Assembly (NCBI GenBank): GCA_034670405.1
Contig: JAXDDX010000058.1
Coordinates: forward strand, 62,001 to 126,000
DNA: 64,000 nucleotides
Direction: 5' to 3'
Origin: Hoplostethus atlanticus
Taxonomy: Eukaryota > Chordata > Actinopteri > Trachichthyiformes > Trachichthyidae
Below are positions 14,927 through 53,500 of this stretch, piece by piece. Under the pieces are notes generated by a model. The model did not search any database and had not been told where the DNA came from. It saw only the letters and a list, made by a program, of their open reading frames with translations. The position numbers were made by a program, and so were the translations under genes. How positions within the stretch are numbered: the first letter of the stretch is position 1; every line of letters begins with the position of its first letter.

Positions 14927-14979
<53 letters not shown>

Positions 14980-20300: not shown

Positions 20301-23300
20301 TCAGCTTTCTATGGCAGGTGGTTCTGTCTCTGCAGAGATGCTGTGGTCTGCTTCCTCATACGTGTGTGTCTGTTCAGCAGGGCTGTCTGGGCTGGCTCTA
20401 ATCAGGGAAGAGAAGGCACACAATCACAACTACTGACAGACTGACCGGTAGGTTCTCACATGAGAGATCCATTTTCAAAATCACATAATTTACTCATAAC
20501 ATGACAACCAAATGTAGAGCAAGTAAATCGACAAAGACATGTTGCTGCAAAACTAGATGTTTACCTGCTTGGGCTCGAAGCCGTGTGCTCGTTATTCTCC
20601 TCCTGGGCAGGGGACTTTGGCTTCCCCTCTCCCTCCTACATCCTCTTTTTTCTGTTCTGATTCCCCATTCACAGGAGTGGAATCTAGAAAAGAAAATCCA
20701 TATTGATATACTGCAGATGATCATTTCATCTCCATCAAATATGTTATGACTGACAGGCAGGGTAGGTCACACCACCTACATCTTATCCCGAGAGAATATC
20801 AAGGCAATGTCTAAACCAGATGAGAGCAAGAGCAAAAGTCTAGCCTCTACCTGTGTTTTGTGTCTCCTTCCCATCGTCTTCTGGTTCCTTGTCCTCCGTT
20901 TTAAGTTTAGCCGGTGGCTCTGCCTTGCCCACAAACTGGAGTTTTAACTTGTTGTAGACATCACTAGCTTTTTCCATGACTGCACTGCTGGCTTTATACC
21001 GCCGAATCTACATCGTCAATAAGAAAAGGCAGTAGAAAAGTTCAGAATGAAGGGAGATCAGAACAATTATAGTTACATTACACTGTTACTACTATGTGAA
21101 TGCAAGATTGGTTTGCACACTTTTGATCAAACTGGTCACGCATTGTGACAAACAAGATCCCAGAAATCACTTAGCCCTTGTCAAATACTTTCACACAGGA
21201 TATTATTATACTTTTAAAAAAATATTATCAGAGTATAAACGGAAATGCACCTTTTTGAGTGTGGCAATAAGGTCAGCGTTCTTGTGCAGGATTTGGCTGG
21301 TGACAGGCACAGCCTCCAGCTCTACTAGGGCTTGTAGACAACGCTCTATGTCCTGCAAAACACACAATACAGAGCAGTGCTTAGATTTTCATTCCAAAAA
21401 GGCTGTTCAAGATGCTTTAAGACACAATGGTGGGAAACAATTTTTCTGCTATAAAAACAAAAAAAAGGATGTCTGGTCAGAGGTGTCACTTACAGGGTTG
21501 TCCACTTTGAGTGCAAACTTGATATCTGTGTGGAGTTTTTGTAGCTTTTCCTCTGGTGATGCCTCTGCATATAGAGACACCAAGTCATGGACAATTCATA
21601 TTTACTCTCATTGAAACAAGATGAAACAACATGACTGGACTCTGCTTTCGGTGAATCTGTCTAATTGTTGCATTGTTTTAGACTACGGAAACTGTCAGAC
21701 TGTACTGATACTTCGGCTGCTTCAATGGATAACAGTAGTGTTTGTGTGAACTGAGCGTGACTGTATGGAAAGACTGACCCTTTTTCTTCTCAACTTTCTT
21801 CTCTGGAGGCCTCTCTGATTTGCGTCTGGGTTTTTCAGGCTTAGACCTGAGGGAGAGGGAGCTCAGTGATCTGTGTACATTCAATTTTAATGAAGTTAAC
21901 CTAATGAGGTTTATATACTGTAGTCTTTGGTTCCCCGTGGTGCACTCACCTCGCCCTGGACTTCTCCTCTGACCGCTGGGATTTCTTCTCCTTTCTGTCT
22001 TTTCCGTCCTTGTCTTTCTTCAGTCTCGCCTTCTTCTGGTTGTCTGTCCGCTTGGCAGATTTTTTCACCTATGTGGTGGGAAAAGCAAAATGGAATCGCT
22101 GAATTTGTAGTTAAGCCACTGCACTCGGACCATCTATCAAAATTTCATGGAAGACAAAACGTTTTCTGCTGTATCGACAATAAATCCACTTCTGTCTTAA
22201 AAAGGATACCTGCAGACGGCAGGTGAATCCATTTAGCTAAATTAGATGATTTTCACATCTAATAGGTTTGTATTTAAAAAAAAAAAATAAACTAACAGTC
22301 TACATATAGGATCTCATACAATGTTATTTTTGTATATCTTCAAAGAACACAAATATCAATATATACAGCCTAGTTAATAACAGCGTTGTTATTAAAGATT
22401 AAGGTTCCAGGTGATGAGCTCTCAAAACGATGAATCACTGTCAGTGGATAGCTGAGTATGAACCAAAAACATCATAGGAAAAGTGACCACTGATGATTGG
22501 AGGGACAAAATCATGTGCGATCCTATTCCTCCGAATAAAGCAAAATGTAAATATATTTAGGAAGATTAAAAATAAAAGCATTATCCATGCTTCCTCATGC
22601 AATGTTTTTCTCCAGCTGACCGTACCTCAGCTGAGGATGAAGAATCCGAGTCAGAGGGCGCAGGGATTGGGGGTGGAGGGGGTTTCTTGGACTTCTTCAG
22701 CGGGTGATCGTCTACACCCTCATTTGAGCTGCTGCTGCTGTCACTGTCACTCCTATTTTTACTCTTCTCTTTCTCTTTCTCTTTCTCTTTTTTCTTCTTT
22801 TCATCTTCCTCCTTCTCTCTCTCACGTAACCGCCGGAGCTCCTCTGCCTCCTCCTTTTTCCGACGCTCCTCTAGCTCTCGGCGGCGCTCCTCGTCTCGTT
22901 TCTTCCATTCGCTGATACGGTCAGGCTCACTGTCACTGTGGATAACGGGGCCACCATTATGCTGCCAGTCACCGCAGACCGATTTGTAGACCGGGCATTC
23001 ATAATATATCAACAATGGTGCATGACAAGAAAACAATACAAAACGTAGAGCAGCCTGACCTGTCGCTGTCAGACGAAGATGACGGTGCCCGTTTTACCGG
23101 GGCAGATTTGGGTTTCCGTCCCCGAGGCTTTGGTGGGGGCTTTTCTGTGGATGAGCAAGGACAGGCACAAGGCAGGGACAACAAAGCACTGTTGGTTACT
23201 GATGTAAAAAGTAGAGCATTCAACTTTTCTCTCTTTTTTTGAGAGACATGAGTGGCTGAAAAACCGAGTTACTTGACTGAATGAAATGTCAATAATAAGT

Positions 23301-25590
23301 GTAAGTAAACATATAACTTACGGGTTTCTGGATGGGGCTGAAACTCATCAATCCTTCCAACAACCCTCACCTTTCTTGCGCCCCTGAGGGCCCTTCCGTG
23401 GAGGTGGGTCTGAGTCTGACTCAGACTTGGAGCCAGACTGAGATTCTGAGCCGGACACTGCCGGCCGTGGTTTCTCGTCCTCTGAGTCACTGTCTGCTCC
23501 TTTCTTCTCTGATTGAGACCCCGAGTCTGAGTCTGAGTCAGACGAAGCCTTCTGCAAGATCCCACAGAAAAAGAGGGGAAGGGAGGGATGGAAAAAGAAA
23601 GAGAAACATGGCATGACAAAATGTACTCGAACACTTTCATAGCACAAAAAGCTGCTTGAAGCTGGTTGAAGCTGATGGTTCACCTTCTTCTTCCCTCTGC
23701 CTCCTGCTTTCTTCCCGCCCCGTCCAACAGATTTCTTCTCAGGTGTAAAGTCCTATTTGGGAAAGCATCAAACAACACAACGTCACTTTAGCCCCATTCG
23801 GAAGGGGATTAGTTTCTCTAGGGGAGGTCAGGTAATTCAATTTATTACAGCGCTATTCAGTAATTTTAATCCCGTCCGGAACGGCCATGTCAGTGATTTT
23901 TCCCTCCTACCCCAGTAATAATTCCGGCCCCAAATACCTACTGTTTTTCAGCAAACTCACGGGTGCACTGATAATTTTAGTACCGTCCAGATAGACATCT
24001 TGGTAATTTGAGATATATATCACAGAGTTCGCAGGCTGTTTAGAACAAGAATTCTGGCGGGTATACTACTTCCTGGTGCGATGATCTTTTGCGCGCAATA
24101 GATAGCCTACCATATCGCCAGCTGTCATTTTATCGGTTTGAAATGGAAGCACTCGAGGAGGCTTTTGCTCTCTTGAATGAGATGAACGTACAATACAACG
24201 TTAGTGCTCCTGCTTGGGAGCCCATAAGAAGGCGGAAGATTAGAAGAGGCAGGTCCCGCAAACTGCTTCGATGCGCGAGTGACGTAAACATCTGGGTACG
24301 TCCGACAATTACGTTCCTCCGTCTGTAAATTTTAATCCCGTCCGGATCGATGACTGAAATTACCGAGGAGCCATGCAAATGTTTTATTACCCATGTTACC
24401 CTGTAAAACTAATCCCGTCCGAATGGGGCTTTTGTGTGATATCTCATGTGTAAATCATGATAGATTTGTAGTCTGTGTAGTTTCAAACACCCAACAATGG
24501 TGCCAGTGCCAATGTTTGTGTCTGTTAACCTGGTCGCTGTTCTTGCCAGAGTCTGACTCTGAAGGGGAGGGCTCTGGTTCAGAGGGGGATCCACTCTCCT
24601 CTCCATCTCTGTCACTGGATGAGCCCCGGGCCTTTTTTGGAGGAGGGGGCCGCTAAAACGTGAGACAAAACCAAGGGATTAGATAAAATTATACTTTGTT
24701 GACTGAAAATAAAAGAGTAAATATTTTGCTTTTGCTGTTTAACATGGGGTTACGGTTCATTATACAACAGCTTTTTTGAGCCAAGCAATCAAAGGTGCAT
24801 TCATACTGTGCTGATCATTCCCATTAAGCACTCACCATGCTTTTTTGGTTGCTATGACAACTAATAACTAGGGAGCTGGTTTGTGGTCTGTCTTGCTTTC
24901 TCCTTTTTTTCCCATTCTTATGTATGTATACAACAAAAAACCTCAGTCAGTGTACATATGTTGGTAACCCTTGTATAAAAGCCATATTACTGTTGAGGAT
25001 GTTGTTTACTATGTTTATGGGTACTTTGGAGCTGCCAACGGTACTCAGCTGCATCTCGTGCCTAGTGCATCACAGCTGTACCATAACTGTGGTAAAGAAT
25101 GCCCTCTCTGGTATTTACTATAGACTTATCTGTTCACCACAGTATTTGGCCACAACGTAAAGCAATCTTAAAGGAGTTTTAACATCATGGGGCTAAATCA
25201 CTGAAAAGGCAGTTATGTGTTGGCAGGGATTTAGTTCCAGTGACAGTGAAATTAAATGATTGCACAATTACCTTAGCGGGTGGCGGCTTCCGCTTCACTC
25301 CTCCTTCCCTTCCTCTGTCTTCACTTCCAGAATCAGAATCAACCTCACTTCCTGAGTCTGCTTTCTGAAGCACCGCAGGTTCTTCTTCCTCGTCATCCTC
25401 ATCACTTCCTCCTTCAGCATTATTTCCCTCACTGTCAGATGAACTGGCTGGCTGTGGACAAATTAGGGTAAGGAAATTAATAGGATGCATGTAGTCTTGT
25501 ATGTATTGTAGTCTACAAAATGGGTCAAAAACTCCCACATCGTCTCACACTTGCAATTGCAACATTTTAATAAGAAGAAATTCATGAACA

Positions 25591-25635
<45 letters not shown>

Positions 25636-26727
25636 GGTGTTCCACAGGTTTGGTTTTTCACACGTTTTTCTGATGAATTTCAAAACAATGGGTACAATTC
25701 TGACTACCACATCACCAGACGTCTTACCGCAACAATTTATTAACCACAGAAATTAAATGGAGGATCACAAACAACAAATGAGCAATAGGCATAAGACAAT
25801 TTAGTGGATAATACAGTATGACACCTGAAGGGAGAGAAACTATATCAAAAGTACCTGATAGATTCTGTGTTGATTTAGTATTATAGACTTTTCGCTTAGA
25901 ATTTCTGATAATAGAGTCAACTCACTACAGGTGGGGCACTGTAGGAGGCATGTGGATTGTTCTGGATCTCCCATAAACCTTCGTTGAATCCCTTCCTTTT
26001 GTTGGGCTTCCCGTAGCGCTCTCTGTACTTCTCATAGGCAAAAAGGTCCTTTGGTGCGAGGAATGCGCTGTAAAACAGAGAAAACAGGGGGAAAGTAACT
26101 ACATTTACTATGAAGCAACCAGTGAAATGTTATCCTGAATGTAAATAATGTGGTTAGTTCATGAAGACAAGCACAGAAGAGGTTGTTGACTTTAACTCTA
26201 AGGACGTTTTCCACTGACTTGAGGAAGAACTAGAGAATAGTAGACTGTGCCACCTAGTGAATGTGTCAGTATAATGCATCTGCCATCTTGCCAAACAGAT
26301 GGTGATGTGTGATGCAGGATCTGACACATCAACAAAAACATACTGCATATTAAACCTGACACAACTCAGTGGTTACACGTATGCCTTCATAAAGGACATA
26401 AGAAAACACAAATCAACATCACAAAAGAGGATATTGTGCTAACAAACAAACAAAAAAGGGCAACGCCAGCTCAACGCTGCATGCTAAAAATGTCCCCGTT
26501 TCATTGTCAAGTATATGCAGTTGTGTTCATCTAAGTTCATACAGTTTCCCAGTAAAAACTTAACAATTTTCTTTAAATGATTAATGATGTAATGAGTAAT
26601 GAACACTACTGTACTCACGTTTCATGTGTCCCAAAGAAGAAAATTGGGATTTTATTAGGAGGTGGTTTCACTGCCCCATCTGCCACATCTTCAATCTGTG
26701 AACAGACAGACACTCAGGTGAAAATGG

Positions 26728-26777
<50 letters not shown>

Positions 26778-27426
26778 AAGAGATACAGAAAGATATCATA
26801 GTTAAGATTTCAGTAGACCTAGGTCTATCGGGATAGGCTTATTAGTATGAGTTGGGACTCAAACAGAGTGTCATCTTGTTATTAAGTTATCTCTAGCCTA
26901 TAAAATATTGTAGATCTAATCAATCAATTGATTCACTGTGTATGGACATTATAACCTAATAACAACATTTAAGGACATTCAAATTGTCAATGTACAGGGA
27001 CTCAACGAGTTTTGGGTGCACAATACATTAGTATTGGATGAATAAGAAGACTTAAGTCAGAACATGCACGCACAACCCAAATGTCATTTCCAAATTAATA
27101 ACGTTAGCTCGCTGCTGTACGTTTATATGCAGATTAGGCCAAGAGCATCTCATGCAAATCATACACGTACAATTTCGGCCTAAACAAAGTGCAGCCTGTT
27201 GCCACAGCACACCATCTCGTTATGTAGCTGTGAGATAGGTATCCATGTCAGATACTGCGAAGGATACAGAGAACCTTCTCCAGCGTCCCATGCAGCTAGT
27301 CGCCTGCCTGCCCGCCCACCCCCTTCGCCCCAATGGGTTGCTGTACTTGCTTACCCTGGCTGGCCAGTGGGGGTACCCCTTCATTTTAGCGAAGACCAAG
27401 TCTCCGGCCTGGAAATTGTGTGGCAT
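20301..27426 (-). CDS. hdgfl2: HDGF-like protein 2 (PWWP and IBD chromatin protein)
   Basis: Nuclear chromatin reader of the HDGF/LEDGF family; the PWWP domain binds methylated H3K36 nucleosomes and the integrase-binding-type domain (IBD) recruits partner proteins. Exons in transcript order: 27355-27426, 26619-26695, 25926-26067, 25272-25451, 24530-24652, 23684-23752, 23371-23551, 23060-23144, 22626-22935, 21950-22068, 21779-21846, 21494-21564, 21251-21352, 20851-21007, 20565-20683, 20301-20397. The PWWP domain (residues about 1-95) starts [20 protein letters not shown] and contains PHWPAR. Long Ser/Asp/Glu/Lys-rich low-complexity linkers follow, then a [20 protein letters not shown] coil. 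The IBD (about residues 477-552) includes [20 protein letters not shown]. In exon 15 the frame as written ends at a TAA (20592-20594), but the last exon only continues an acidic HDGFL2-like tail if one base of the GGGG run (plus-strand CCCC, 20624-20627) is extra. With that base ignored the protein would be about 656 residues, against 671 in human. Confidence 0.95.
22403..22463 (+). ncRNA. Weak candidate box C/D snoRNA-like element in hdgfl2 intron
   Basis: A C-box-like GTGATGA (22411-22417) and D-box-like CTGA (22452-22455) are flanked by complementary GGTTC and GAACC, the layout of a box C/D snoRNA. However, it is on the strand opposite to the host gene and the C-to-D spacing (about 34 nt) is short. 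I give it only because the arrangement is visible. Confidence 0.12.
23790..24430. mobile_element. 641-bp TIR DNA transposon remnant, PIF/Harbinger-like MITE
   Basis: Ends are inverted repeats of about 25 bp: left AGCCCCATTCGGAAGGGGAT, right (reverse complement) AGCCCCATTCGGACGGGATT. Both are flanked by TTT (23787-23789 and 24431-24433), a 3-bp target duplication. Internally, the word TTTTAATCCCGTCCGGA recurs near both ends. A 79-residue open frame (24089-24328, plus) shows no domain I can name and may be a remnant of a transposase-linked protein. It sits in an hdgfl2 intron. The superfamily is inferred from TSD length. Confidence 0.75.
25589..25635. repeat. (ACT)n trinucleotide microsatellite
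   Basis: About 15 ACT units in an hdgfl2 intron. Confidence 0.95.
26728..26777. repeat. (ATCT)n tetranucleotide microsatellite
   Basis: About 12 ATCT units in hdgfl2 intron 1, just upstream (gene sense) of the second PWWP exon. Confidence 0.95.
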
Positions 27427-34574: not shown

Positions 34575-36043
34575 ATGGGAGACTGGAAACAGAACCTTGG
34601 GACTTTGAGGGAAGGAGCCCTGAACAGGCTGGCGGAGATGTTGGACAACTCCAATTGTGGATGGAGACAGTTGGCCAAGATAGTGACCGAGCAACCTCGA
34701 TTCCAATGCAGGTGAGAAACTAGAATGACATTACATACATACATTACATAGTCCTATTAGGAGTCAGACAAGGAGTAAAGACTATGGACATCCCTTTTTG
34801 CCTAGGCAGCTCACCTGAGCTTTGACACCCCATCCAGTAATCTAAAGGATTTTCAGATATATGAAAACCATCATGAATCTGTGTTGACTTCCTTCCCTGC
34901 AGTGATAGTGAGCTGACCAGCTGCTCGCTCCAGGTGCTGAGCCCTAGAGGCAGCCCAGGACGCTTCCTCCTGGCTCGGTTAGCTGATCGCTCCTGCCCCC
35001 TGGACTTCCTGCTCCACTGCCTGAAGAAGATGGACCACCAGGAAGCTGTGCAATACCTCACCGCCACAGGTATAGGCAACTGAGGTGCCAGTCATACACT
35101 GGCCGTCAAAAGTTTGGGGACACCTAGCTTTTGAAAATGTTTTTAATAAATAAGCTTGTTTTCTATGTCGGTTTGCGATAACTTAACACATTAAAGACTA
35201 ACTAGGTTTATTTTGAGTATAACAATATTACACTTTATTTCTGACGACAAAATATTTGTGACGACTGACAAAAGTACTACCTTGGGAATAATGATATACC
35301 CCACCCATTTTATATCCTTGTTGTGATGTCAGCACTCACCAGTGGATACCTATCAGGTGTTTAAACCATCTTTGAGGCAAAAGATTTTCAATTTGTGCTT
35401 TTAACAGGTTTGGAAAAAGAAAACTGTCAAATCATTATTTAGGCAAACCTACTCTTCATACCAAGGAAGACACTTTGATGAACATGAAGCTGAATGTTGC
35501 ATAAATATACCCAAAGTGTTAGTAGCTGTTTTATGTTAACAAAACCTTCGTAGGCATTTTTTTCTTTTTTCTTTTTTTCTATTGAAAAGAGGAAATCAAG
35601 CATTACATTAAAGGCAAGGTGTCCCCAAACGTTTGACGGGCAGTGTACGTACATGGGTAGAAATGTATTTCAGTATGAGTAGAACCTATTTTAGTGGAGT
35701 GGCATTAAATAGTTATTAAATAGTATAATAATAATATTTGTAGTAGTATTCTAGTAGTGTAGTATAGTGTAATAATATAATAACATTAAATAGTCCCAGT
35801 TAAACGATCAGATGTTCAAAACAGAGCAAAGGTTATTGGTTGGTTACTAATATTTATTTAAGGAAACACGGATTTGGCTCAAGTCAGTGGAATTTGGGCA
35901 TTGTTTATCTTGTCTGCAGGGGCATCTTCTTTCACATGTTAGTGCTTGTAAAAGCCATGCCTGGCCTTCCTGTAACGCTACCTCATCCCTAAATTTAAAA
36001 TAAATATGCTGTGTTTCATGTCTGTGCATGTGAATGTTTTCTT

Positions 36044-36094
<51 letters not shown>

Positions 36095-39000
36095 ATGTGC
36101 GTGTGTTCATTGCACAGTGACGGAGCCGATCTGGATCACCGTGCAGCCCCAGCCCCAGCAGACCTCAGAGGGGGGCAGGGTGGTGTTGACCTGCAGAGCC
36201 TCTGGTCCCACTGGGCTCAGCTACCAATGGTTCAGAGGCAAAGACGAGGTCAGACCATGACACACTATCATAACGCGTTATGAATCTAAAATGTAAAATA
36301 AAACTTAAAACATTTAAAGATTTCAGGTCAACTGAGCTATGGTACTGTAACTGTGATACTAGATAGGATTGGTCATTTAGTGAATACATTCATTGATACA
36401 GGATTGGTAAGTTCCTTATGCAACCAACCATAAAAACAAAGCTACAAAGGCTGAATGAACAATCACTGATTTTTAATTGGATTTTGGGTGTATGGTGGGG
36501 AGCCTCCATGTCTCTAGACAAAACGGAAGCATTTGGCTGATGACAGGCCTTCTTCACGCTGTCCTGCGTCCCTCATACAGCCCCTGCTGACAGAGGCCTT
36601 ATCTGAGGAACAAACAGTGGATTGCATTCTCTGCTGGTTTCTCTCTTTGAGGACAGTCCAGATTTTCCCGACCCGGCTTGGCACAGGTCCGGTCATCACT
36701 CTCTTCTTAGCAGGCTGGCAGGAGTTTGAGCTCAGCGTCTTTGACAGGCAAGGAAACTTGGCTTGCATTGTTCCTCTCACTCTGCCCAACAGAGTGAGGA
36801 TCATCTCAGGATCATCTGTATAGCAGCAGGGTTCTTGGGATCCTTAATCACGATGGGCCTCCAGATGAAAGACTTCTCCTCATGGACCGTGTTGTGCATC
36901 ATTTATGAAGGAGGGGAGCTCGGTGCCCGGATCACCCGCATGCCACCCGCATGTCATCTGGGTTGTTGGGACTGTTGACTGGGATGCAAGTCCAGACAAA
37001 TGATTTGTCCTCTTGATGACTGTCAGATATCTGATGTCTGTTGGGATAAATGAATGAATGCAACACCACAACACAATCCTGAAGAGGATATAGGATTCTT
37101 CTTCTTCCAGTTCTTCTTGTTCTTCCTGTTCTTCTTCTTGTTCTGTAATAATCTAGGCCCTATTGGCCTTCCTAAGCAAATAAACCAAAGAGTAAAAGGA
37201 AGGGAACAGGAAAACATTTTCAACCAAATGTTTGTACAACACATACAATACGTAGGCCTACATTTATAGTATACATAATAGCATGAATTGATGGTTATGT
37301 TGGACATAATGGACTGTATATAACTCTATCTTATTGTTTGTTTTAGATTTTGGGTGGGCCTGGGAATGCCCCAGAGCTGGTTCTCTGCCCTTTGGCCCCG
37401 GTCCACCAGGGCCACTATATCTGTAGGGTCAACCATGGGGAGAACTGCACCTTCTCCCAATGGGCTCAGGTTCGCTTGGTCCACTCTGCAGGCTATAGTC
37501 CAGGTACTACACTCTTTAGGAGGAAGGGTACTAAAGGTCCTCCTCCCCTCCCCGCTCCTCTTCACTCCACTCGTCCTCTCTCTCCTGTCTTACTAGTCCA
37601 TCTCTCTTCCTCTCTGTCAGCTGTCCTGTCTTATCTGATGTCCTCTTCATTTCATATTTCATCACATGTCATTTGATGCCTTGTTATCTCAGGCTGTAGC
37701 AGCAGTCTCTTTCCGGGGTCGGTGAGCGGTCTGCGTATCGTCCTTCAGCCTCAGTCCCAGGTAGTGTCCGAGGGGGACGCTCTGTTTCTGGAGTGCCATG
37801 TTGAAGCCAACCCTCCTGCCCAGTACCAGTGGTACCACAACATGGAGATCATGCCACAGCACAAGACACATGCACTCAGGGTAAGCATTCATGGAGTCTG
37901 CTGTGAACTCAATGCTTACCTACAGTGTATGATAATAATGGTAATAGTAATAACAATAAGAAATGAATAAATAATATAATAATCTTGATTTATAAAGCAC
38001 TTTTCAAAACATTTTACAAAGGATAAAAAACATCAAAGCAGCAAAACCAATTAAAAACAAGGTAAGAAATATAAAAACAAAGGAATAAAATAAGGTAATA
38101 AAAGGAAGGTCAAAATCAACAAGGTCATTAATAGCATGTAAAAGCAGGTCTATAAATGTGATCAGTAAAATCGTCAGTAAAATGTAACAGTGGTGGTGAG
38201 CCGCTGGCTGAAAGTTTGATTAGAAATTGATAGTTTAGAAATGTAACAAGAAGGTATTTGCTTCTTAGGTCTTACGTCATCATTTGACTGGAGATATGTT
38301 CGGTCAAAATCAGTCTACAAATATGATTACATTATAAAAATAAGGGGCCTGCAAAGAATAAATTCTGTGGGCCAAATGTGACCCACATACTTAGGCGGTC
38401 CTGCACTAGATCTTTCTTGAGGGAGAGAGGTTAGATATGTCATACATTTATATGTTAGACAGTTAGCTCTTGAGCAGGCAGTGGTTCATTGTCTGTGACA
38501 CTACTTAGGTCATATTGATTGTTGCATGGATAAACCAGTGATCTTTCATTTTTAGCATGGCCTCTAACCATTAGGCCACTCTCCTGCCCTATCACATAGA
38601 GGGTAAATGCATCTGCACCTCTTACTTTTTCCACTGGTCAAAACATCCTATGGAAATACCATCTCTTTACCCACGGGCGTCTATTAGACTTCAGGATACA
38701 GTTGACAGCTAAACTTTGCATTGCTCTATATCAATGTGCCGCCTAGTTGATGTTCTGCCTTCTTTAACGTGGATGTCCTGTAGATCCCATGTTTGACCAC
38801 AGCACACAGAGGACAGTACAGCTGCAAGGTGTTCAACCTGTACCACGAGACATGGACTGACCCGGTCCAAATTAGCATTGGTGAGACTAAGCATCATTTT
38901 TTCTATTTCTATTCCAAAGTATTCAGAATGTAAACCTATGAATGAAAGAAATCTTAGAGGAAGAGGTCTTTGATAAGGCAAGTAGAACAAGAGAGAAACA

Positions 39001-42000
39001 TGCTTACAACAGATATACAGATAGGTGGAGCCTTTTGACCCATTTATAGGATCAACGTTACACATTTGTATCCACTGTACTTGTTGTATTTGATAATCAG
39101 AGCAAGTTTATGTTCAGTGATTAACTTCCTTTTTTGCAGGCCCCACTTCCATCAGTGATGCCTCCTGGGTTGATGGTCCAGGTATTCTTGATATTCTAGT
39201 TTCTAGTGCTCTTCCTCATTCCTTCACCCCACACCTTGATTTCTGTTTTTGTATGCACATCAGTGTGATGACAAAAATGCATGTACTTTGTGTTTTTCAC
39301 AGCTAGCCCTACCAAGCATAAAACCAGTTTTTATGGTGAGTTTTATGCACAAAGTCACTATATATGACACATTTATCAAAATATAAACAAATTCTATGCT
39401 TTTTCGTTTAAATGGTGATGCTTAATGATGGTGATGTCTGTCTTCCCCACCACACCACAGCCACAGACAAAGTTGCTCTCCTGATCGGCAACATGAACTA
39501 CCGCTACCACACTCAGCTCTGTGCACCCATGGCCGATGTTCACAAGTTGACCAACCTCCTTAGGCAACTGGATTTCAAGGTGGTTTCCTTGCTTGACCTC
39601 AACTGGCAGGAGATGCACAGCGCCGTTACTGAGTTCCTGTTGCTGCTTGACAAGGGAGTCTACGGTTGGTCTCTTATCCATTTGGAGAACGTGTAATGTT
39701 CAAAACTGGTTACAAGGCTGTGCTCTATTTGTTATGACTGTTTGACAGGCTGTAAACTGGTCTAACACTACTGACCGATGAAATAAGGACTAGAAAATAT
39801 CACTTGAATGAGATCATTTCAGGCTAAATGTGAATCTGAATCTCTGTTAATTTACTATCTTTGTCCTTCCTCTTCTTCGTCCATCGTCCTGCAGGCTTGC
39901 TGTACTTTGCTGGTCATGGTTATGAGAACTACTGGCAACAGTTTCATGGTTCCCATTGATGCGCCGGCCTCCTATACATCAGAACACTGCTTGTGTGTAC
40001 AGAATGTCCTTCAGAGGATGCAGGAGAGAGAGACTGGACTCAACATCTTTCTGTTGGACATGTGTCGCAAAAGGTATGAATGTTTTTAACTTGTGAGTGT
40101 TGTTTTATGTATTGCTGTGAACCTTAGGGATAATTAACTGTATTGTATTGTATCCTATCATACCATATTGTGTCATTATTATAGCATATGTCATGCCATC
40201 TCATATTGTCTTGTAGTATATATTGTACAGCTTGAATGGCAAAGCAGAAGAATCGTGTATCCATTAACACTACAGGCAGACCTTGTTTATCCAGATGTCA
40301 GACTTCCAACCTGACCAGTCTACCAAGCAGACATAAGGAGCTAAACGTTGAGAATAAGAGTTTAGAAGTGAGAATATGTCGTGATTATACGCAATATGTT
40401 GATACATGCAACCTCTGTGGAGAGAATTGGCATTTTTGCCTTTATTTGACAGTCAGTAGAGAGAGACAGGAAAGATCAGGTGAGAGAGGAGGGAAAATCC
40501 TATTCTCCTGTACAACCTCAATTTCCTGGTTAAAGAGGGTTCTACTGTATTCTGTTTTGTGCCTTCATACATTATGCTTATGTCCTCATTACCAGCTACA
40601 ATGCAGAGCATACAGATCTGAGCTTAAATCATTGTCTTTATTAGAAACCTAAATGATGATGTCATTCTACAACCGGGGCCATTGAAGGTGACAGCAAATA
40701 CAGTGTTTGGATACGCCACGTAAGTTGCTGATCTTCTGAGACCTTTCTAACTATAATGCAGCATATGGTGTCATGTATTGTCTTAATTCACATGCTCTGC
40801 TTCTTTACGTTGAATTAGTCCAGTGTGGGAGACAGGTATGAGTATGAGTTAGTCTCCCTGCTGGAGGGCAGAAGGTATCTCTCATGTTTCACTGGCCATG
40901 TTTAGATGTGTGGATGCAGAAGCATATGAAGTGAAGAGAGATGACCTGTCCAATGGCATCTTCATAAACTTCCTCAAACAGCGTCTCCTTGAAGATGAGA
41001 AGGTCACCGTCATGCTAGACAGAGTGGCTGAAGGTTTGTAGAGCGCAATTGTACAGTATGAGAGCTCCAATTAGGCCAACAGTAGACCATCAGCCAGCTG
41101 GCAGCCAGTTGGCTGTTCTCATTTCATGCATGGCTTTTACTTGACCTGACAGACTTTGGTGTTGTCCTTTTTAGTTTGAAATGTTTGACTAGTCTGCTGT
41201 GTTTAGCTCCAGTCTTGTGAGGTATTTCATGGTAAATATTGACAGGACTACTGGAATACATTCTATGGTTCGTGTGTAATGATACAAGATGTATTAATCA
41301 CACAAAACAATGCATACAATAATAGTTATTTACCGTTACCAGACATGGGTCGCTGTGAGCTCACACGAGGGAGGCAGGCTCTGGAGCTACGCAGTAGTCT
41401 GTCTGAACGACGTGCCCTCACTGACGAGATACAGAGCTCTGACTGTCCTGCAACCTCTTCAGCTCGCTACCTGCAGTGGGCCATTGCACACGGTACTTTT
41501 TAGAAAGGTTTACTTTTTTTTAATTTGGGCATGCAAGTTAAGATGGTTGGTTTCACCGACGTTGGATGGTTTCACCGACGTTGGATGGTTTCACCGACGT
41601 TGGATGGTTTCATCGACGTGGATTAAGCCTTGTGTAACTCAAATGTCTGTCTGTCTTAGTTCTACCTGAGAGCTGTAACCTGCAGTTTGACTGTGGAGTG
41701 AAGGTGCAGCTTGGTTTCGCTGCAGAGTTCTCTAACATCATGATCATCTACACTCGGATACTGGAGAAGCCCAAGGATGTCGTCTCCTGCTCTGCTCAGC
41801 TTACTGACTTCTCAGAGGTTTGCTGGTTGAGTCTCTCAAATCTCATCTCCCTTGATATCATAGAGTAAAGGTTTAAAAGCCATGAATTTGTTCTGGCCCA
41901 ATGACTCATCTCACTAAAAAAGTTATCTACTTTTTTGTGGTGGTAATGCCCTGAATGCCTGAGCCTCACAAAAAAATAGAATGTATGTATTGACCTTTGC

Positions 42001-42954
42001 ACTGTATGTTACTATGGCAGGATATGGTCATTGATCTGAAGAAGAGTAATCAGCAGAGTCTGGTTGAAGCGGGGCAGTTTATTGCTGACCAAGGAAAACC
42101 TTCCCTTACCAGAAGTCCCCAGCCTCTACACACGCCTCCGGGGCCTGCAGAGACTCAAGGTCAGGCCCTTATCATTGATTACATTTTCTAGATTAATGGT
42201 TTATTTTTACAAAGACAGATACAACCACAAGAAAATATTGCAAATAACTGCCCTTTAGTATCACAATTACTTTAGTAGTTAGTTTGTTTCCAGTTCCTGT
42301 CCTAGGAGCACGTTGATAGACATATACATGGAAGTAAACTCCGCTCGCTCAGGGACACTTAAGTAATATTTGGCACAGTTGGTACTCAGGATTGAACTTT
42401 TTTTTTGGTAAATATTCCTTGGTTTCTTTAGGGTAGAGCTCAGAACCTCTCACTCCTTTTTAGATTTTTCTCTTGGCAATGAAAACACATTTTGCTCTCT
42501 ACTGTCTTTATAGGAAGAGCTCACATTCACTGTGTGTCTTAACTACCGCTACTCCAACATGGATGAGGAAGTCCAGGAAAGGCAAATAAAAACCGTTGGC
42601 AAACCACTGGTCTCCAAACTCAACCTCCATGAACCCCGCCTGCCTCGCTCCTACTCCTCATCCTCCTTCGACCTTCACTCCTTCAACTGTTCTGAGTCTT
42701 CTTTGTTTGCAGAGGCTCTTAGGCCAGACTTGCCTGCTTCTGAAACATCCTCTATTGGTTCAGCCTCAACTACCTGGTCATATTATTCACAGACTTCAAC
42801 CAGGAGAGTAAATATACCAGAGGAGACTGTCAGTCCTGAGATGTTTGACTGTGATGCCCCTCAACATCTTACCACCAGCAAAAGCTTGCCCCATGACCCA
42901 GTAAAGGACACAAACTACAAGTTTAGTAACATGTGCAATTTCCATTCTCATTAA
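34575..42954 (+). CDS. malt1-like: MALT1-family paracaspase, probable paralogue; two frame breaks
   Basis: Arginine-specific protease/scaffold of CARD-BCL10-MALT signalling to NF-kB. Exons: 34575-34711, 34903-35069, 36118-36248, 37347-37503, 37693-37880, 38784-38880, 39140-39181, 39303-39335, 39461-39664, 39895-40073, 40645-40719, 40906-41033, 41343-41492, 41660-41817, 42021-42159, 42514-42954. Order: death domain (1-101), Ig1 (102-197; YQWFRG), Ig2 (198-292; YQWYHN), paracaspase (about 318-560), C-terminal Ig-like domain, 146-residue tail. The catalytic His lies in FAGHGYEN (about residue 393) and Cys in FLLDMCRKR (about 442), the same 49-residue spacing as human His415/Cys464. Exon 10 of this list has one extra base near 39933 (TGA at 39957-39959 if read literally); exon 15 has one extra G in GGGG (42071-42074). 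Ignoring both gives about 807 residues, close to human 824. The tail has IPEETVSPEMF where mammals have a TRAF6 motif. Could be real decay or assembly error. Confidence 0.9.
35097..35645. mobile_element. 549-bp Tc1/mariner-type MITE
   Basis: Flanked by TA on both sides (35095-35096, 35646-35647). Ends are inverted: left CACTGGCCGTCAAAAGTTTG, right (reverse complement) CACTGCCCGTCAAACGTTTG, both continuing GGGACACC. This TIR type (GTCAAAAGTTTGGGGACACC) is common among vertebrate Tc1-like elements. No transposase frame, so non-autonomous. Inside a malt intron. Confidence 0.88.
36049..36093. repeat. (GT)n microsatellite before malt Ig exon
   Basis: About 22 GT units, followed by GCATGTGCGTGTG; ends 25 bp before the exon starting at 36118, replacing a normal polypyrimidine tract. 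Confidence 0.95.
36344..36850 (+). repeat. Dispersed sequence, copy 1 (malt intron)
   Basis: Two blocks, 36344-36408 and 36724-36850, match the segment 57895-58107 on the opposite strand. Shared words include GATACAGGATTGGT, TTTGAGCTCAGC, ATTGTTCCTCTCACTCTGCC and AGCAGGGTTCTTGGGATCC. In copy 1 the blocks are separated by about 315 bp absent from copy 2. No known family recognised. Confidence 0.65.
41543..41618. repeat. Minisatellite, 19-bp unit x 4
   Basis: Unit GTTGGATGGTTTCACCGAC, four near-perfect copies in the malt intron just upstream of the exon at 41660. Confidence 0.92.
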
Positions 42955-43170: not shown

Positions 43171-43618
43171 TGAAATCAGGTCTATTTTGAATGCGCTGCA
43201 AAAATAATTGATTACCTTACATTTCAGGTTTGATGAGGTGTTTCTTTTGATTATCATAGTGAAGAAAGAGAACATGTAATTGTTCAAAGGTGAATTCATG
43301 AAATGTTTGTAGACCTTTTTCTAACTGCTGCTTTGATACATTTCTCTGTATTGTACTCACACAACAAAAAGACAATACTGATCATTGGCTACCAATTACA
43401 TTTCCAATTGTTTTTTCCTGTGCTGTTTTAGCTATAATTGTGCCACAGATATATTAATACATAATATAATAATGTATATTGGCTATATCCTATTTATTTG
43501 CCCATATGTTACCCATACGTTAAGTTATAATGAAATTACATGTTTCCTGCTTAGGTTGTAGTTACCAGGTCCTATACATTACAGTATACTCTGTGCCTTT
43601 CATGTGTACGACTACTAT

Positions 43619-44041
43619 AGGCTTTTCACACTTGAATTACTTACACTTATAATAGCCCTGGGTTAATTTATCTCATGTTTCACACTAGTTTTCTTTAACC
43701 CTGGGCTAACAATTGACCCTGGGTATTCAGTGTTCAGGATTTCACACTGTAAGCTTGTAGACCCCGGGTTAACGTTTAATGCTAATGTTTAACTCGCTGT
43801 TACATTCTAACCCCACAACGTTTCACACTATTGTTCTCAGCACCGCGTTTCGGGGATAGCACCACAAAAGCAGTGCTAACCCTGCTTCGTAGCAGGGTTT
43901 GTTAACCCAGGGTTAAAAGCGGTGTTAACCCTCTTTCAAAAATGCAAGTGTGAAACGCTGCTTAGCCTGGGGTTAAATGCGTCCTTAACCCAGGGTTAAG
44001 AAAGACGTTAGCCCGGGGTTAAGTGTAGTGTGAAAAGCATA
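43619..44041. mobile_element. About 420-bp TIR element (MITE) with GGGTTAA-rich interior
   Basis: Left end GGCTTTTCACACTTGAATTA and right end, reverse complemented, TGCTTTTCACACTACACTTA form terminal inverted repeats. The interior carries many palindromic blocks of TTAACCC(A/T)GGGTTAA type. No coding capacity. TSD unresolved; the hAT superfamily is possible. It lies between malt and safb, ending about 25 bp before the inferred safb promoter motifs. Confidence 0.75.
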
Positions 44042-44236: not shown

Positions 44237-47200
44237 ATGGCTGACTCTTCAGTAGAAGTAGAGGTTCCGGAGGGTGCAGAGGTTCGCAAATTATCGGATC
44301 TGAGAGTTATCGATCTTAAGGCCGAATTGAAGAAACGGAACCTGGACACCACGGGCATCAAGAGCGTGCTATCAGAGCGTTTGAAGAAGGTATTGCTATC
44401 CCGTCTGCTCTCTTGTATACAACCCAATAATATAACGCCATTGCCGAAGTTTTTGATTTCTGAAGCTTAGCGAATGCCCTCTTTCAACTCCTCGCGCTTC
44501 AGCTCTGACTAACGTTAGCTAATAACGTTACGAGACCCATTGACAGCTAACGCTAACTGGCTAACGTTACCGCAACTATGTTAGCGCTAGCTGGCTAGCT
44601 AAAGGCCTTCATTTGTATGGCAAGCTAATCTTGTCAAGCTTTTTGCCTAATTTGAATGTGTCTGTTTTCTATATGTCTTGCTCTGGAGTATTTATTCAGT
44701 ATGCGTTTGTTCATTTGCTCTAACGTTACTCCGTGAACAGGCAATCGAGGAAGAGGGTGGAAATTCGGATGAAATTGTTGTTGCTCTGGAGCCAACCCCA
44801 AAGAAAGCTACACCTAAACGGGCTGTAAAAGGTAAGCAACAGATACACTGACACATGCTTTCTGTATTTTTTTTTGCATTTCAGTTAGTTAGGATAGCCG
44901 ATGAAGACTTTGCCTAAACAAAAGCATTGTCTCAACAGATGCAAGGCAAGACACTGATGGACCAGAGGACAGCACCGTTGAAGAGGATTCTCGTGATGGA
45001 CAGGTGAGTTTGTTGGAAATTAAATGTCAAACTAGTTTTCACAAATATAACATATTTAAATACATACACATAATTGGACGTGCTCCCTGGCCACTGAAGA
45101 GTTATTAGGTACTAGATATTACCGTTAATTTTCTCTTATCTAATCAGGATGAGCTTCATGATGACCAGGACAACATGCAGGACATGGACATTCTTGACAT
45201 GAATGTTCTGGATGAGGCAGAGAATGACAATGGCATACCTGCTGAGGAAGATGAGGATGAAATCCAGAATCTTCACACTGAAGAAGACAATGAAGATGAG
45301 GAAGATGCACTGATGGATGAGGAACAGGAGAACAGGGCAATTGAGTCAGAGGATGAATCCAAAATTGAAGATGTGAGTAACTGTAGATCACCTGAGGTTA
45401 GACTAATTTTATGTATTTGTTCAACTTGGAAATTTTTGCCAGTTGTCAAGTAACGATTGTCAGGTGCTTTTTTTTGTTTTGGCTGTGGAATGAATTATCT
45501 CATTTGAATGCTATTTGTTTGTGTTTTAACAGATGGATGAGTCTGAGTTTGTAGATAAAGATGAAGACCTGACATGCCCATCACCCAACATGGTATTGTC
45601 TCTCACAAATGTTTTTGTATGCAAAGTTGCTAATGCTTCAGTAAAAGCAAATGGACATTCACATTTTTAATGATGCCACCTTTTGTTTTAGGTTCAAGAA
45701 AAGGAAGCAGAAGCAGATGACTCCAAAGAAGAAACAGGTACTCTTGAAAAAGGGTTAGAAGTTCACATGAACACAGACCTATCTTTTTTTACAGTGTTGA
45801 GCTTGGAATGCAATCCTTTAGTTTAATTTCAACCAGGAAGGGAGACTGGAAGCCCAAAGGGAATTGCTGGGTTTGTGTAGAAATTTGGTTAACCATAATG
45901 GTGATATCAGTATTAAACACTTAATTGGTTAATATATCAAATACATTTTTGCACCATCAAAAGAGCAGTGGTTAACGAATTGATACACATTGACAGCAAT
46001 TAAATGTCAAGGCCAGGGAGGTTTTAGCTGTTGTAGGTGATTCAGTGTTTCTAGGTTGCCACACGAAGATCAAGACAAAGAAGAACCACCGAGGCTCATC
46101 GTTTGATTCCAGCCTTTTTAAGGACTATGAATTATAAATCCATTGGACATGAAACTAATGGACTTGATCTGAAATTCTGGTCAACGTGAATGGACACTGG
46201 TCAAGTCAAAGATTGAAAGAAGATGGACTAATTCACTCAGCCTCTACTGCTGCTCTGCTGATCTTGTGACTCTCTTCAGCACTGAACTCTTTTCTGCTTT
46301 GGATCAGGTGAACTGAGTCAAGTGGTTCAACTTGAGAAATGAGCCGAGGTCTTAGTCCCTCTAGCTGCTTGGTTGTCCCTTAGCCTTTGGGTTCTTTTCC
46401 AGTCTCTCAGTAGGGTGTGCTGCATCGTTTTAATACTTTGATCTAGGAGCACAGGGCAGGAGTCATGACGTTCCTAATCCAGGCCTTGCCAGTTCCTCGT
46501 TAACCATTGCTGTGTTTCAGAAGTGATTAAACTCTGTGCCATTCTATTCCTGTTAAATCCGTAGAAAATGACAAAGTAGCCGGGTCTTGTTTATCTGAGC
46601 CGCTTAACGAAGATCACCACCAGAGCCAGGAGACGACCCCTGAAGAAGAGCAAGCTGCCACCGCCGGAGGGGAAGACAATGCGTGCGACATTGGAGCCAA
46701 AACCGACAAGGCCACTTCTGGTAATATGGAGAGTGACACGAAAGAGGTTGGGGACATACAGAACGTCCCGGAAGAGACAGTTGACACTGAAAGCGAAAAC
46801 ACTCAGGCTATTAGTGTAAGCGAACAGGGCACCGCGGGCGAAACTGTTGATTCAGAAATGGGGTCTAAGGAGGATGAGAAGACAGAAGAGAACGCTGCTG
46901 CGGATTCATCCTCGGCAGTGAAAGAGTCCTCTTCTGTAGAGGGCGATGATCAGAAAAAGAGGTTTGTTGTTTTCTGTCTACTAGAAACCAAAATGGCTAT
47001 CTCTGTTGCATTGGCTCCTTTGTGCTAGCAAAATTTGGATGCTCTTTTGGAGGTAAAAAAATGGTTTGTGCATTTGTCTGAAGTTTTCATTTGTCATTCC
47101 TTGCACTCACTTATCCCACTTTATTACCCATTAATGATTAATGTATTGGGATTGTCTTGGGGCATAGTTCCATACATTCACTGTTAAATCACTGCACTAT

Positions 47201-47473
47201 GGTACGTGATGGGTTGATCACTGTCAGTTTTGTACTGTACCATAAAACACGTAAGTATAAACCTCTGTATGGGAAAAGATCCCAGGTATCCACACTGTTG
47301 TATGTTTATTGTTTGTTTTCTCTGTCTCTAGTTCTGAGGAAAAAGATGGCAAGACTGAGTCAAAAGATGAAAAGGGTGAGTGGATGAAATTATTTCTTAT
47401 TATTTTCCTTAAAATGTAGTGAATGATTGCTCACTCTTTTAAGTGTATGTGTGTGTGTAGCCTCTGGAGGAGG

Positions 47474-47515
<42 letters not shown>

Positions 47516-50500
47516 AAACAGTGGCAGGAATCTATGGGTCAGCGGTCTCTCTTCCACTACCAGAGCAACTGATCTGAAGACCCTCTTCAGCAAGTATGGC
47601 AAGGTTAGTCCATATGCGTGTCCTTTGCTGGAAGCCAGAGCATTTCTAAGTTATCATTGTCAACGCGCTAGAATTGTCTGACATTACAAATTCTTAAAAT
47701 TTGATTGAAAAAAATAATTTTAATTGTGTTTTCACTTTTCCATGTTCACCTTTTCCTCCTTGTCCTTCCTGCTGCCCCTCCTCCTCAACCATTTTCATTC
47801 AGGTTGTTGGCGCTAAGGTGGTGACTAACGCCAAGAGTCCTGGGGCTCGCTGCTATGGCTTTGTCACCATGTCCTCCACAGAGGAGGCCTCCAAGTGTAT
47901 TAGCCACCTCCACAGGACTGAGTTGCATGGCAGGATGATCTCTGTGGAGCGGGTGGGTGGATTGTTGTTGATGTGCAACACTAACCACAACTTAAGAGTG
48001 CTAGGAGGAAGATTTCCAACTTAAGGATGCTCATTGGGCCTTAGGTCCCAGGTCCAGGTTATAGGCCGTTGTGTTCTGTGTTTGGTTCCCCTGTCAAATC
48101 AACGGCGTAGATGCACGTAAATGTGTCCACGTAGCTACACAGGGATGGGGTTTATGGGTAAGCGCAGCCTGCAGATGCTTTCAGAGGGGTTGACATGCAC
48201 ACCTTCAAAATCTTAACGTGTTGCTGTGGTGTGCGTCAAACGCTGATTGGTTGACCAGGGAAGTATATCTGGTAGCATTGGGAGTTGGGCCATGACCCAA
48301 AACATTACATTACATTATAGTCATTTAGGAGATGCTATTATCCAAAGCGACTTACAAAGGTGATAGTTGACACTATGTTGGACTCGAAACCCATGACCCT
48401 GAGACTCTCATGCTCTACCGACTGAGCTAACTGGGCCATCAATAATGGAAATAAACCAAAGCATTTAAACAGAACAACAATAGAGCAGTTTGAGGAGCGA
48501 CTCTCAGATGAGGTTCGCCAAATAAGAGAAATTGTTGAAATTGGTTCATTTGATTCACCTTTTGTAAAAAATGAATGAAAAGGTTTTGCACCCAAAAGCA
48601 CATTGGGCTGTTTGCTTCAGTTGTCTCTTGTGAATTAATCATTCATCCATTTCTTGAATGTTGCAGGCCAAGAATGAGCCTGCAGGCAAGAAGCCAGCAG
48701 ACAAGAATGACTCCAAGAAGTCTGGCAGCGACAGGAGACACTCGTCTGACTCCAAGTAAGGCTACCTGCAGGCTGAGAAACGTGTTTGAAAATAAACACA
48801 CATGCTCACATGCTCCCATGCTCCCTCTTTCTCTAATAATAACACAACATATCCCATTTGGTGTCTCAAGTGCCTTACAGTACCATGGGTACATTTTATG
48901 CATGGCTTGCCCTAGTGGTAATACCCCCAACCCCTGGTATTAGTGCTGTGCTCTACTTTGAGTTATATAGGATCAAAATAAGCTATCCACTAAACAGGAC
49001 CATGGGGGTAATGGTTTAACATGGTGTTCAACTGTCATAATGTGTTAAAACTTCTGCAGGTCCGATGGGAAGGATGAGAAGTCTGAGGGTGAAGGAAAAG
49101 ATGGCAAAGGTGAGACAACGATTACTCCAAATCAGTATCTGCTCTATCACTGGCTAATTGTTACCCCTCTAAAACCTTGATTAGCAGCTCACTGAATCTG
49201 ACATGTGGTTGTTTTATAGGGCGTAACGAGAGGACTGTAGTAATGGACAAGTCCAAGGGAGAGCCTGTCATCAGCGTGAAAACCAAAAGCAAGGAGCGAG
49301 TAAGTTAAACATTGATCCCTAGAAGTCTAAATCCCATCCCATCTCTCATCTACAGCTTCAGGGGTGATCCTCTCTGTGTTGATCAGTGTTTTCCACAAGC
49401 ACATTTAGTAGCCAGCCAAAAGAGAAACATGGTGGGTCTGAGGGCATGCTCACCCAGGGAAAATATTTACTGGGTTTCCGCGGGTCTTTAAGTCTTAAAT
49501 TTAACTTGCTGGAACCTGCAGAAACCCTGTATTTAGATGAAGAAGCTAAATTGTGGTGTTTTTATCAATTCTGACACTTGAATTATTGAGTAGTTGAATG
49601 TGTTTACCTCAAACTGCATATTGTAGGATTACGGTTGACTTAATTTCACTATGGAAAACTCTTTGATTGGATGAGATGCAACAGGAGCAAAGCTCCTTTT
49701 TCCTGCTTTGGCACCACGCTAAAACTGAAGCATGCAGCAACAGGTGTGTTTGATGTGCGACTACAAGGCTCCTAACATTAATATGATTATCAGATTCAGG
49801 AGAATACCCTACCCTGCAGTAAAAACTTACCAACAAACCACCACCAAAAAAATTACTATTAAAAGTATCTGGCTGGAGAGGAGTCAGTAATTGGCTATCT
49901 GGCAGAAATACTGGTTGATATTTAAGTCCTTTAGTACTTGCAGATTCTTAAGCTTAACCAAACAATTGGGCCAGGGAATTATTCTATTCCTCACCTTTCT
50001 CCTTACCCTTTCTCTCCTTTTTATATAGAGCACCAAGAGTCGAGACCGCAAGTCACCCAGCAAGGAGAAGAAAGACATCCTGTCATTTGACCAGATCAAG
50101 GAGCAAAGGGAGAGAGAGAGGCAGAGGCAACGGGAAAGAGAGATAAGGGAGGTGGAGAGACGCAGATCCACTGGGTAAGGAGGATGGTGGGAGTCTAGAA
50201 GCAGCAATGTCAAACCACTCTATAGTTTATGTTCTCATAAGTCTCCAAAACAGCACATATTGTGGATAAATTATTAGATTGTTCCTCGCTGTCTTGTCTC
50301 AGTGATCGGGACCGTGACGGCCGCTCGGAGCGCGAGCGTATCCGCCTGTTTCGGGAGAGGGAGGAGCGGGAGCGTTTGATACGGAAGAGGAACTGGCTGG
50401 AGGTAAGCTCCTTTTGCTCTTTATTTCTGAGAATATTTGAAGTGTTTCATTCCAAAATGAGATATCCACCATTTGAAAAAAAAATAATAAAGCACATTAT

Positions 50501-53500
50501 GGGTTAAAATATTATCATTTTAAGACCCCCATTTTAAGAGTTCTGTTTTTGGGGGTGGAATTGTGTTTTTCTAATATGGACCGATGTATTTTGGGTAGCA
50601 AGATTTTTCCAAAATGGGTATATTGTGTTTTGGAATTAAACATTTCATTTTATTTGAAGTTAGGTGCCGCCTTCCGTTTCTCTAACCTCAATGTGAGAGG
50701 CTAAAAGAGATTGGCTTAAAGTCATTGGAATCTTATTTTGCAGGATTTCAGGTAATTCGAGAAGGGAATGCTACTTCATTAGAAGAAAAATTGTATGAAA
50801 AGTTAAGCTCCTACAAGGTATGTGTTGACAGTCATATTGACTGCATGGTATGTTATGGCTTCGTTACCAGGCTGAGAAACAGCGCCTAGATGCAGACCGC
50901 ATGGAGCGTCAGTTCCTGGAGCGGGAAAGGCTGCGCGTGGAGTACGAGCGGCGGCGCGAGCAGGAGAGGATCCACCGGGAGCGAGAGGAGCTGCGACGAC
51001 AGCAGGAGCAGCTGCGCTTCGACCAAGAGCGACGCCCCGTTAAGCGGCCTTACGACATGGAGGGCAGGTACGTAAACGTAGGCTGGTCTTATGGCATTGT
51101 GAAACGGAATAAATACATCTCAGTATCAGTGTGATGTGACATATCATTCACCCCTATTGCTAGGGTTCAAAATGTCTACAGATGAGGACTTGAATTAGCT
51201 AGCCCACCACAAATTAGCCTTGCTTTTTACTGGGTCTGTGGATAATTGCTCTGATATAGTACCTGTAATTCTTTCCCTGAATTATTGATCACCTTTCATT
51301 GATCACCTTTTATAATATACATTTACATTGTAAGCATTAAGCCGATATTAACCAGTGTGACAGTAGAATAAGCTTACATTTCTAGAGCACCAGCATTACA
51401 AGGAACCCTTGTTCAAGGTGAAAGCCTCAACACAGATAATTGATGCAACAGTATTCTGTCTCAACTGGATATTAGCTGCTCAGTGGATGAAATTATTTGT
51501 GTTTGGATTCTGGTGCTTGTTCCTGTTCAGGAAAGACGACTGGCCTGATAAGCGTATAGCCATAGATGACCGGTACAACCGATCAGACTTCAGTCGCCAG
51601 GATCGCTACCAAGACTTCGACCACAGGGATCGTGGGCGTTACCAAGACGACCTGATTGTAGAGAGGCGGGACAACACGCGTGCCATAGCTGGTGACAGAG
51701 ACAGTCAGGTAAGAGGCCCTGACCTAATAGACAGACCTTCCTAATAGATTATGTTGTATAATATCAGAACATCAGAAATTTGTTCGGATACAAAATAAAC
51801 TACTTGTTGTGTATGGCAGCAATACTCAGCGTTGAAAGGGCCTATGTTTGTGGCATGGCAGGCCTCGATGAAAACATTACGTCTTGAAGTGTCTTTGCTA
51901 CGTGTTACTCATTGACAGGGTTCCTTCATAGGTCTGGAAAAGGAGTTTTACAATTTGCAGGTCTTGAATAGTGTGGGGAAATGCACACAATGTCCAGAAA
52001 AATGATGTTCACTCACAATACACATGACACATTTTACATTTGTACATCCACTGTCACTTAATATTTGTTATAGAGTAACGTGGCTTAGCTGGTCATATTG
52101 CCCATTTTGAACCTTGAACACCTCAGTCAGGGTGATGGTGTTTCCTTTATTTATGTAGCGGTGGTGGGTCAGACAAATTTTTATTTTGGTACCACATCTC
52201 AGTAATGATTCTTGCACAGGTTGCGGTGCTAAAAGAGTTTTTTAGGGGTAGTCACAAAATTTTTTCTAAACATTAGACAACATTTAATATACCTAAATTT
52301 CACACTTTCTATCGCTGGGGTGGTGCACTACTACCCCTAGAGGAAATCCTCATTTTGGAACTGGTATGAAATGGAAAATGTGTAGCAACTCTGCATTGGA
52401 TTACAGAGGGCTGCTGAATGGTTAATGTCATTATTTCTCTGTAACCCCGGTTGTCTGTCTCTCCATACAGCACTTCTCAGACCGGTCAGAGAGGCACGGC
52501 AGAGAGGGCAGAGACTCCTGGACCGGAGGATACGACAAGCGCCTGAACCCCAGGTCAGCACCTGGCTAATAGGCGTACACTGGCCTGGGTTACCGCTACA
52601 TTGAAATACACGTTGGCAAAGGCCAATGCGAACATTTTTATCCTGAGGAGTAATTCTTTTGGTCTGTCGTCTTTTTAGAGATGGAGGCCGAGACTGGGAA
52701 TCGGGACGGAAGATTGATGGAGACAGGGCATGGCAAAGTAGGAGGAGTTCTACTTTATTTTGCATTAAATGACTGTAGTAATTGATGCTCTGTTAAAGGC
52801 CTGTTGGTCAATTTACCCTTCATGTGATGAGAGGATTGGCAGAAAAAACTCCATCACTAAAAGATCTATCTTCATACGTTAGATAATGCACTTAACTTAC
52901 ATTATCCTAACACGTTAGCATGTGCACAGGACAAGAGATATCTACCAGAGACGTGATTTTGGTCATCGCATGTAAAAGATGAATTGACCGATGAGCCAAT
53001 TTCCCTCAAAAATTAGTGTAATCCTTTAAAACTATGATTTTGAGGCATAGTAGGTAGGATATTGCGTTTTGTGGGGATGGGAATTGGTAAATGGGACAAA
53101 TCATGTAGAGAACAGTGGGCTGTAAAGAAACTGGCAATATGCCTGTAAATGTTGGCAAAAAAAAATGTCTCCCATTGCTATGAATACTGTCATCTTGGTC
53201 TGATGTCTTGATCATCTGTTCCAGGTAGAGACGGTGCGATCCCAGGCCAGAGCCACTTGGCTCGTGGAGGAATGGCAAGGTGAGCAATGGATAATGTCAA
53301 CCTCCAACACTGGCATTTTATTTAGTGGAGATTGAAATACTTTTGTAACAAACAAATAATTGTGTGTGTTGTTTTCTACCCCCAGCCGTGGAGGCTACAT
53401 GAACACAGGAACATCTCAGTCTCTTTCTGGAGCTCTGAACAGACAGAACCAGCTGATGCAGGGCAGTGGACTGCAGAGTGGGGCCTTCGGACGGCGCTAC

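Follow-up and report, generated by a model that had tools for sequence, protein, structure and literature searches.

The Paracaspase Locus and Its Neighbors

The window, that is the whole stretch of 64,000 nucleotides analyzed here, contains a MALT1-like type 1 paracaspase gene on the plus strand (34575–42954), flanked by AP3D1 (1019–18665) and HDGFL2 (20851–27426) on the minus strand and by SAFB on the plus strand (44237–53400, where its last exon is cut). The paracaspase gene runs from ATG to TAA through 16 coding exons with a total of 2426 nt, and all 15 introns are bordered by GT-AG. A search of PDB combined with Pfam gave the order death domain, Ig, Ig, caspase-like domain and Ig3. Exons 1 and 2 (34575–34711 and 34903–35069) encode the death domain, matched with phmmer to the MALT1 death-domain chains 8j5i and 2g7r (E 2.1e-13); Pfam at E 0.001 gave no death-domain family in the paracaspase, and the assignment comes from the PDB search only. 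Exons 3 to 6 (36118–36248, 37347–37503, 37693–37880 and 38784–38880) encode Ig1 and Ig2, with a match to MALT1 3k0w (E 3.7e-23) and two stretches assigned to Pfam Ig_3. A (TG)n microsatellite lies at 36036–36106, immediately 5' of the acceptor of exon 3 (36118), whose polypyrimidine tract it leaves poor. Exons 7 and 8 (39140–39181 and 39303–39335), recognized by exon phases, are 42 and 33 nt long and form a short linker.

Exon 9 (39461–39664) matches the first part of the caspase-like domain of human MALT1, and exon 10 (39895–40073, 179 nt, with AG acceptor and GT donor) carries both catalytic codons. The rest of the protease domain and the start of Ig3 were aligned to exons 11 to 14 (40645–40719, 40906–41033, 41343–41492 and 41660–41817), which form a single open frame of 170 codons. 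Intron 13 contains a minisatellite at 41544–41619 with about four copies of a 19-bp unit. Exon 15 (42021–42159) encodes Ig3 and matches Pfam MALT1_Ig (PF18703) with E 2.4e-30, for a query that ended a few residues beyond the second of the two frame breaks described below. Exon 16 (42514–42954) encodes the end of Ig3 and the C-terminal tail. H415 and C464 are the catalytic residues of human MALT1, and D365, D462 and E500 are the acids of its Arg pocket. These five and W580 are the same residue in the window paracaspase. The gene thus has the death domain with two Ig domains, the caspase-like domain with His, Cys and acidic Arg pocket, and the MALT1 Ig3 domain of a type 1 paracaspase, and what it lacks is one continuous reading frame, which is interrupted by two +1 breaks.

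The neighboring genes served as controls for the reading frame. Their counted exons, placed on GT-AG sites, comprised 22 coding exons of AP3D1 (2592 bp), 14 of HDGFL2 (1753 bp) and 21 of SAFB (2426 bp, counted to 53400 only), together 6771 bp with neither a frame break in any of the three genes nor a stop. Human references were used for these genes; an 89-residue stretch of the window AP3D1 is identical to the AP3D1 chain 9c5c_D. The counts leave out two poorly aligned 3' exons of AP3D1 (888–757 and 376–332, with a TAA at 376) and four weakly aligned 3' exons of HDGFL2 (20781–20755, 20710–20640, 20602–20565 and 20397–20364), for which no breaks were reported. A 30-nt aligned "intron" of HDGFL2 at about 23519–23490 was counted as exon, being open, and the aligned SAFB exons 45443–45463, 46055–46185 and 46241–46307 were among those swapped for hand-read exons. 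The alignment also indicated a SAFB frameshift near 52564; this was rejected, as the human reference is dissimilar there and the hand-built exon chain reads through unbroken on GT-AG sites.

Several repeats were observed around these genes. SAFB has a GCT run at approximately 47475–47517, which encodes a polyalanine tract just 5' of the RRM. The interval between the paracaspase and SAFB holds a MITE-like stretch (43618–44041); its 22-nt terminal inverted repeats show 82% complementarity, and several palindromic TTAACCCAGGGTTAA-like repeats lie inside it. On the minus strand, 12143–12199 gave a weak tRNA match in Rfam (29.7 bits), perhaps a tRNA-derived SINE, where ARAGORN found no tRNA gene, and a further tRNA-like repeat was apparent by eye near 48300–48440.

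Two Frame Breaks in the Assembled Gene

Exons 1 to 9 of the paracaspase form one open frame, and the first interruption lies in exon 10. Read in phase with exon 9, exon 10 gives GLLYFAGHGYENY-WQQFHGSH-stop, also written GLLYFAGHGYENYWQQFHGSH, and ends at the TGA 39957–39959, codon 407 of the gene. Read one base later, from 39934, it gives GNSFMVPIDAPASY...FLLDMCRKR. A protein-to-genome alignment with a custom-written aligner, in which the human MALT1 sequence from the PDB search output was the reference, placed the +1 break at 39933 and did not move it at frameshift penalties of 12, 20 and 30. Identity to human MALT1 was 63/79 residues before this break and 151/234 after it, the lower second value comparing different domains and being in itself no sign of decay. 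The phmmer E-values were 5.6e-38 before and 3e-99 after the break, and the match on both sides of 39933 is far beyond chance. The catalytic His codon (39915–39917, human H415) falls in the frame upstream of the break and the catalytic Cys codon (40063–40065, human C464) in the shifted frame. The simplest reading of 39933 is one extra base. The original prediction had described a single extra base (T at 39933 or an equivalent one) in the exon 39895–40073, with the catalytic His in the incoming frame, the Cys of FLLDMCRKR one base later and literal translation ending at the TGA between the two catalytic residues, and both the alignment and the reading of the two frames agree with it on each of these points.

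One extra base is an incomplete account of the gene, as the same alignment demands another +1 break at 42072, inside the GGGG run 42071–42074 of exon 15. Before this second break, frame 0 ends with ...NQQSLVEA; after it, the next frame continues with GSLLLTKENLP...SLYTRLRGLQRLK, for which the human counterpart is TPEETGSYLVSKDLP...CLYTRLSSLQKLK. Exon 16 keeps to this post-break frame until the TAA at 42952–42954. An A-run near 42095 had been a candidate site for the second break and was replaced by the G-run on the basis of the alignment and the frame pieces. The TRAF6 motif of Ig3 (42057–42075) spans the break and reads SLVEAG, with loss of the Pro of TPEETG.

Both breaks are present in the assembled sequence, and the remaining gene is open and well spliced, with no internal stop in any of its three frame pieces. 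The original prediction had rightly allowed for both an assembly error and a broken protease. Since there are two breaks, a broken protease takes two events and an assembly artefact takes two errors.

Identity of the Paracaspase

The gene had been called malt. MALT1-like it is, but its neighbors and its TRAF6 sites indicate that it is probably a paralog of the PCASP2/3 type and not the MALT1 ortholog. Human AP3D1, HDGFL2 and SAFB lie on 19p13.3 and human MALT1 on 18q21. The TRAF6 sites that PMC5978004 presents as specific to PCASP1 are PVETTD at the C-terminus and TDEAVECTE in the linker, and neither was seen by eye in the translations of exons 6 to 8 and 16. The synteny together with the missing PCASP1-specific sites suggests that the gene is a paralog of the PCASP2/3 type and that human MALT1 is not its ortholog by position. 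For PCASP2 and PCASP3, section 7 of PMC5978004 reports MALT1-like activities, uses zebrafish PCASP3 as a positive control and states that both equal MALT1 in the efficiency of NF-kB induction.

A scan for the protease domain gave 3 pattern stretches in a collection of viral genomes and 41 in a collection of prokaryote genomes, with no confirmed relative among them; this is expected of an animal gene and is uninformative about fish. The layout of the genes and the repeats, which are of a kind known from fish, suggest that the source is a teleost. Literature searches on the loss or pseudogenes of MALT1 paralogs in teleosts, judged by title and the start of the abstract, returned nothing on point (the topic of PMC5684396, for example, is MALT1 expression in sea bass), and searches on PCASP2 and malt2/malt3 gave nothing useful beyond PMC5978004.

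Origin of the Frame Breaks

A one-base coding indel is an ordinary kind of change, whether it arises as an assembly error or in the animal. We consider it the best explanation, with a probability of roughly 0.6, that the two breaks are consensus errors which survived where polishing of the assembly was locally insufficient, and the breaks are most probably not in the animal. The locus would then hold an ordinary PCASP2/3-type paracaspase gene to which local under-polishing added two false one-base insertions, and the animal's own gene would be predicted to encode a full-length, catalytically competent protein. Several observations favor this explanation. Firstly, the gene contains no other stop, all its introns are bordered by GT-AG and it has retained the catalytic and Arg-pocket residues and W580. 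Secondly, compared with the human sequence each break inserts a single base, in one case within a run of four G. Lastly, the distance between them is 2.1 kb, which a patch that escaped polishing could explain.

The density of the breaks can be set beside published error levels. Over the four genes there are 2 breaks per 9197 coding bp, about 1 per 4.6 kb. Rhie et al. (PMC8081667) place long-read CLR vertebrate assemblies at Q30–35 before polishing, name short indels that give frameshifts as their commonest error, give one error per 10 kb for polished assemblies and describe TLK1 as having retained frameshifts in a locus that was left unpolished. The density in the window therefore lies between the unpolished and the polished levels of that account, which supports consensus errors. 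Kim et al. (PMC9516821) distinguish eight types of false gene loss, frameshift indels being one of them, and their account finds far fewer frameshift errors in Illumina-based assemblies; the probability of consensus errors would thus be lowered if this assembly were Illumina-based.

Three further observations weaken the case for consensus errors. The three neighbors are free of breaks over 6771 bp, and the probability that two uniformly placed errors would both hit the paracaspase is about 0.07 (9197 coding bp, four genes). The first break lies outside any homopolymer. The altered TRAF6 motif of Ig3 could be a sign of relaxed constraint.

The strongest alternative, plausible but in our judgment less likely than not, is that the breaks are real and that the assembly has recorded a recent null allele of a paracaspase paralog, segregating or fixed, with nonsense-mediated decay (NMD) of the transcript or a stub of 406 residues as the outcome. 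It accounts directly for the clustering of both breaks in one gene beside three neighbors with clean counted exons. One paralog could perhaps be dispensed with if, as PMC5978004 states, PCASP2 and PCASP3 match MALT1 in NF-kB induction, and the TPEETG that the same account gives as common to the three paralogs reads SLVEA-G here. Against a real null allele, the indels are accompanied by no stop substitution, no loss of a splice site and no loss of a catalytic residue. If each frameshift indel is assumed to come with 4 to 14 neutral substitutions, however, a gene free of stop and splice hits would be expected with a probability of 0.61 to 0.17, and the missing hits are therefore weak evidence against it. 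Natural decay favors deletions over insertions, whereas both breaks are insertions.

The consequences of a real null allele would differ from those of a protease that is merely dead. Six exon junctions follow the premature stop, the last of them 767 nt downstream, and by the 50–55 nt rule the transcript, if real, would be a target of NMD, so that little protein of any kind would be made. Any protein that did appear would be a stub in which the death domain and both Ig domains are followed by half of the protease; it would lack the Cys and Ig3. The locus would offer a snapshot of an immune protease paralog in the first steps of its loss, and would allow one to ask what the animal manages without it. 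If both breaks were genuine and also fixed, which seems unlikely, the lineage would only just have lost a PCASP2/3-type paracaspase usable for jawed-vertebrate NF-kB signalling. The gene would then have been caught at its first two hits with the active site intact, possibly leaving a stub that binds BCL10 and is devoid of the catalytic Cys and Ig3.

Another alternative is that two haplotypes, or near-identical duplicates, were merged into one chimeric sequence during assembly and that one of the pair has decayed. The window gave no sign of a duplicate of exon 10: no convincing second copy was found in its 64 kb, the best other matches having E 2.2 for the upstream peptide and 0.43 for the downstream peptide, and we regard a chimera as very improbable. 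The lack of a convincing second copy likewise speaks against the least probable alternative, a bypass of the exon 10 break by splicing or +1 ribosomal frameshifting that would make protease activity conditional; the +1 frame is open throughout exon 10 (39808–40089) and any shift within exon 10 5' of 39957 would reach the Cys, but none of the splice choices tested both mends the frame and spares the core (an intron within exon 10 was rejected, as splicing at any of the 14 frame-compatible GT-AG pairs of at least 17 nt that lie between the two catalytic codons would cost the conserved core 22 to 112 nt), skipping of exon 10 is out of frame (exon 9 ends in phase 1, and the phase that exon 11 requires is 2), inspection by eye showed no known +1 recoding site at the break, and exon 15 would take a second event.

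If the breaks are consensus errors, automated annotation could mistake an immune gene for a pseudogene or insert a spurious tiny intron that rescues its frame. Introns of 1–2 bp of such a rescue kind are described for PCDH17 in PMC9516821.

Comparison with Known Paracaspases and False Gene Losses

The window gene shares its domain order with human MALT1 (PCASP1, PDB 6f7i), to which 255/393 aligned residues of the linker, protease and Ig3 are identical, and it has retained the catalytic and Arg-pocket residues. Unlike human MALT1, it has neither PVETTD nor TDEAVECTE (by eye), and the human counterparts of its neighbors lie on 19p13.3, not on 18q21 with MALT1. It is similar to the jawed-vertebrate PCASP2 and PCASP3 in its type 1 paracaspase architecture and differs from them in Ig3, where SLVEAG takes the place of the TPEETG that section 7 of PMC5978004 reports for all three paralogs. 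The false frameshift gene losses described in PMC9516821 and PMC8081667 were verified by mapped reads; the present case, read from the assembled sequence, resembles them in that short indels interrupt coding exons that are otherwise intact.
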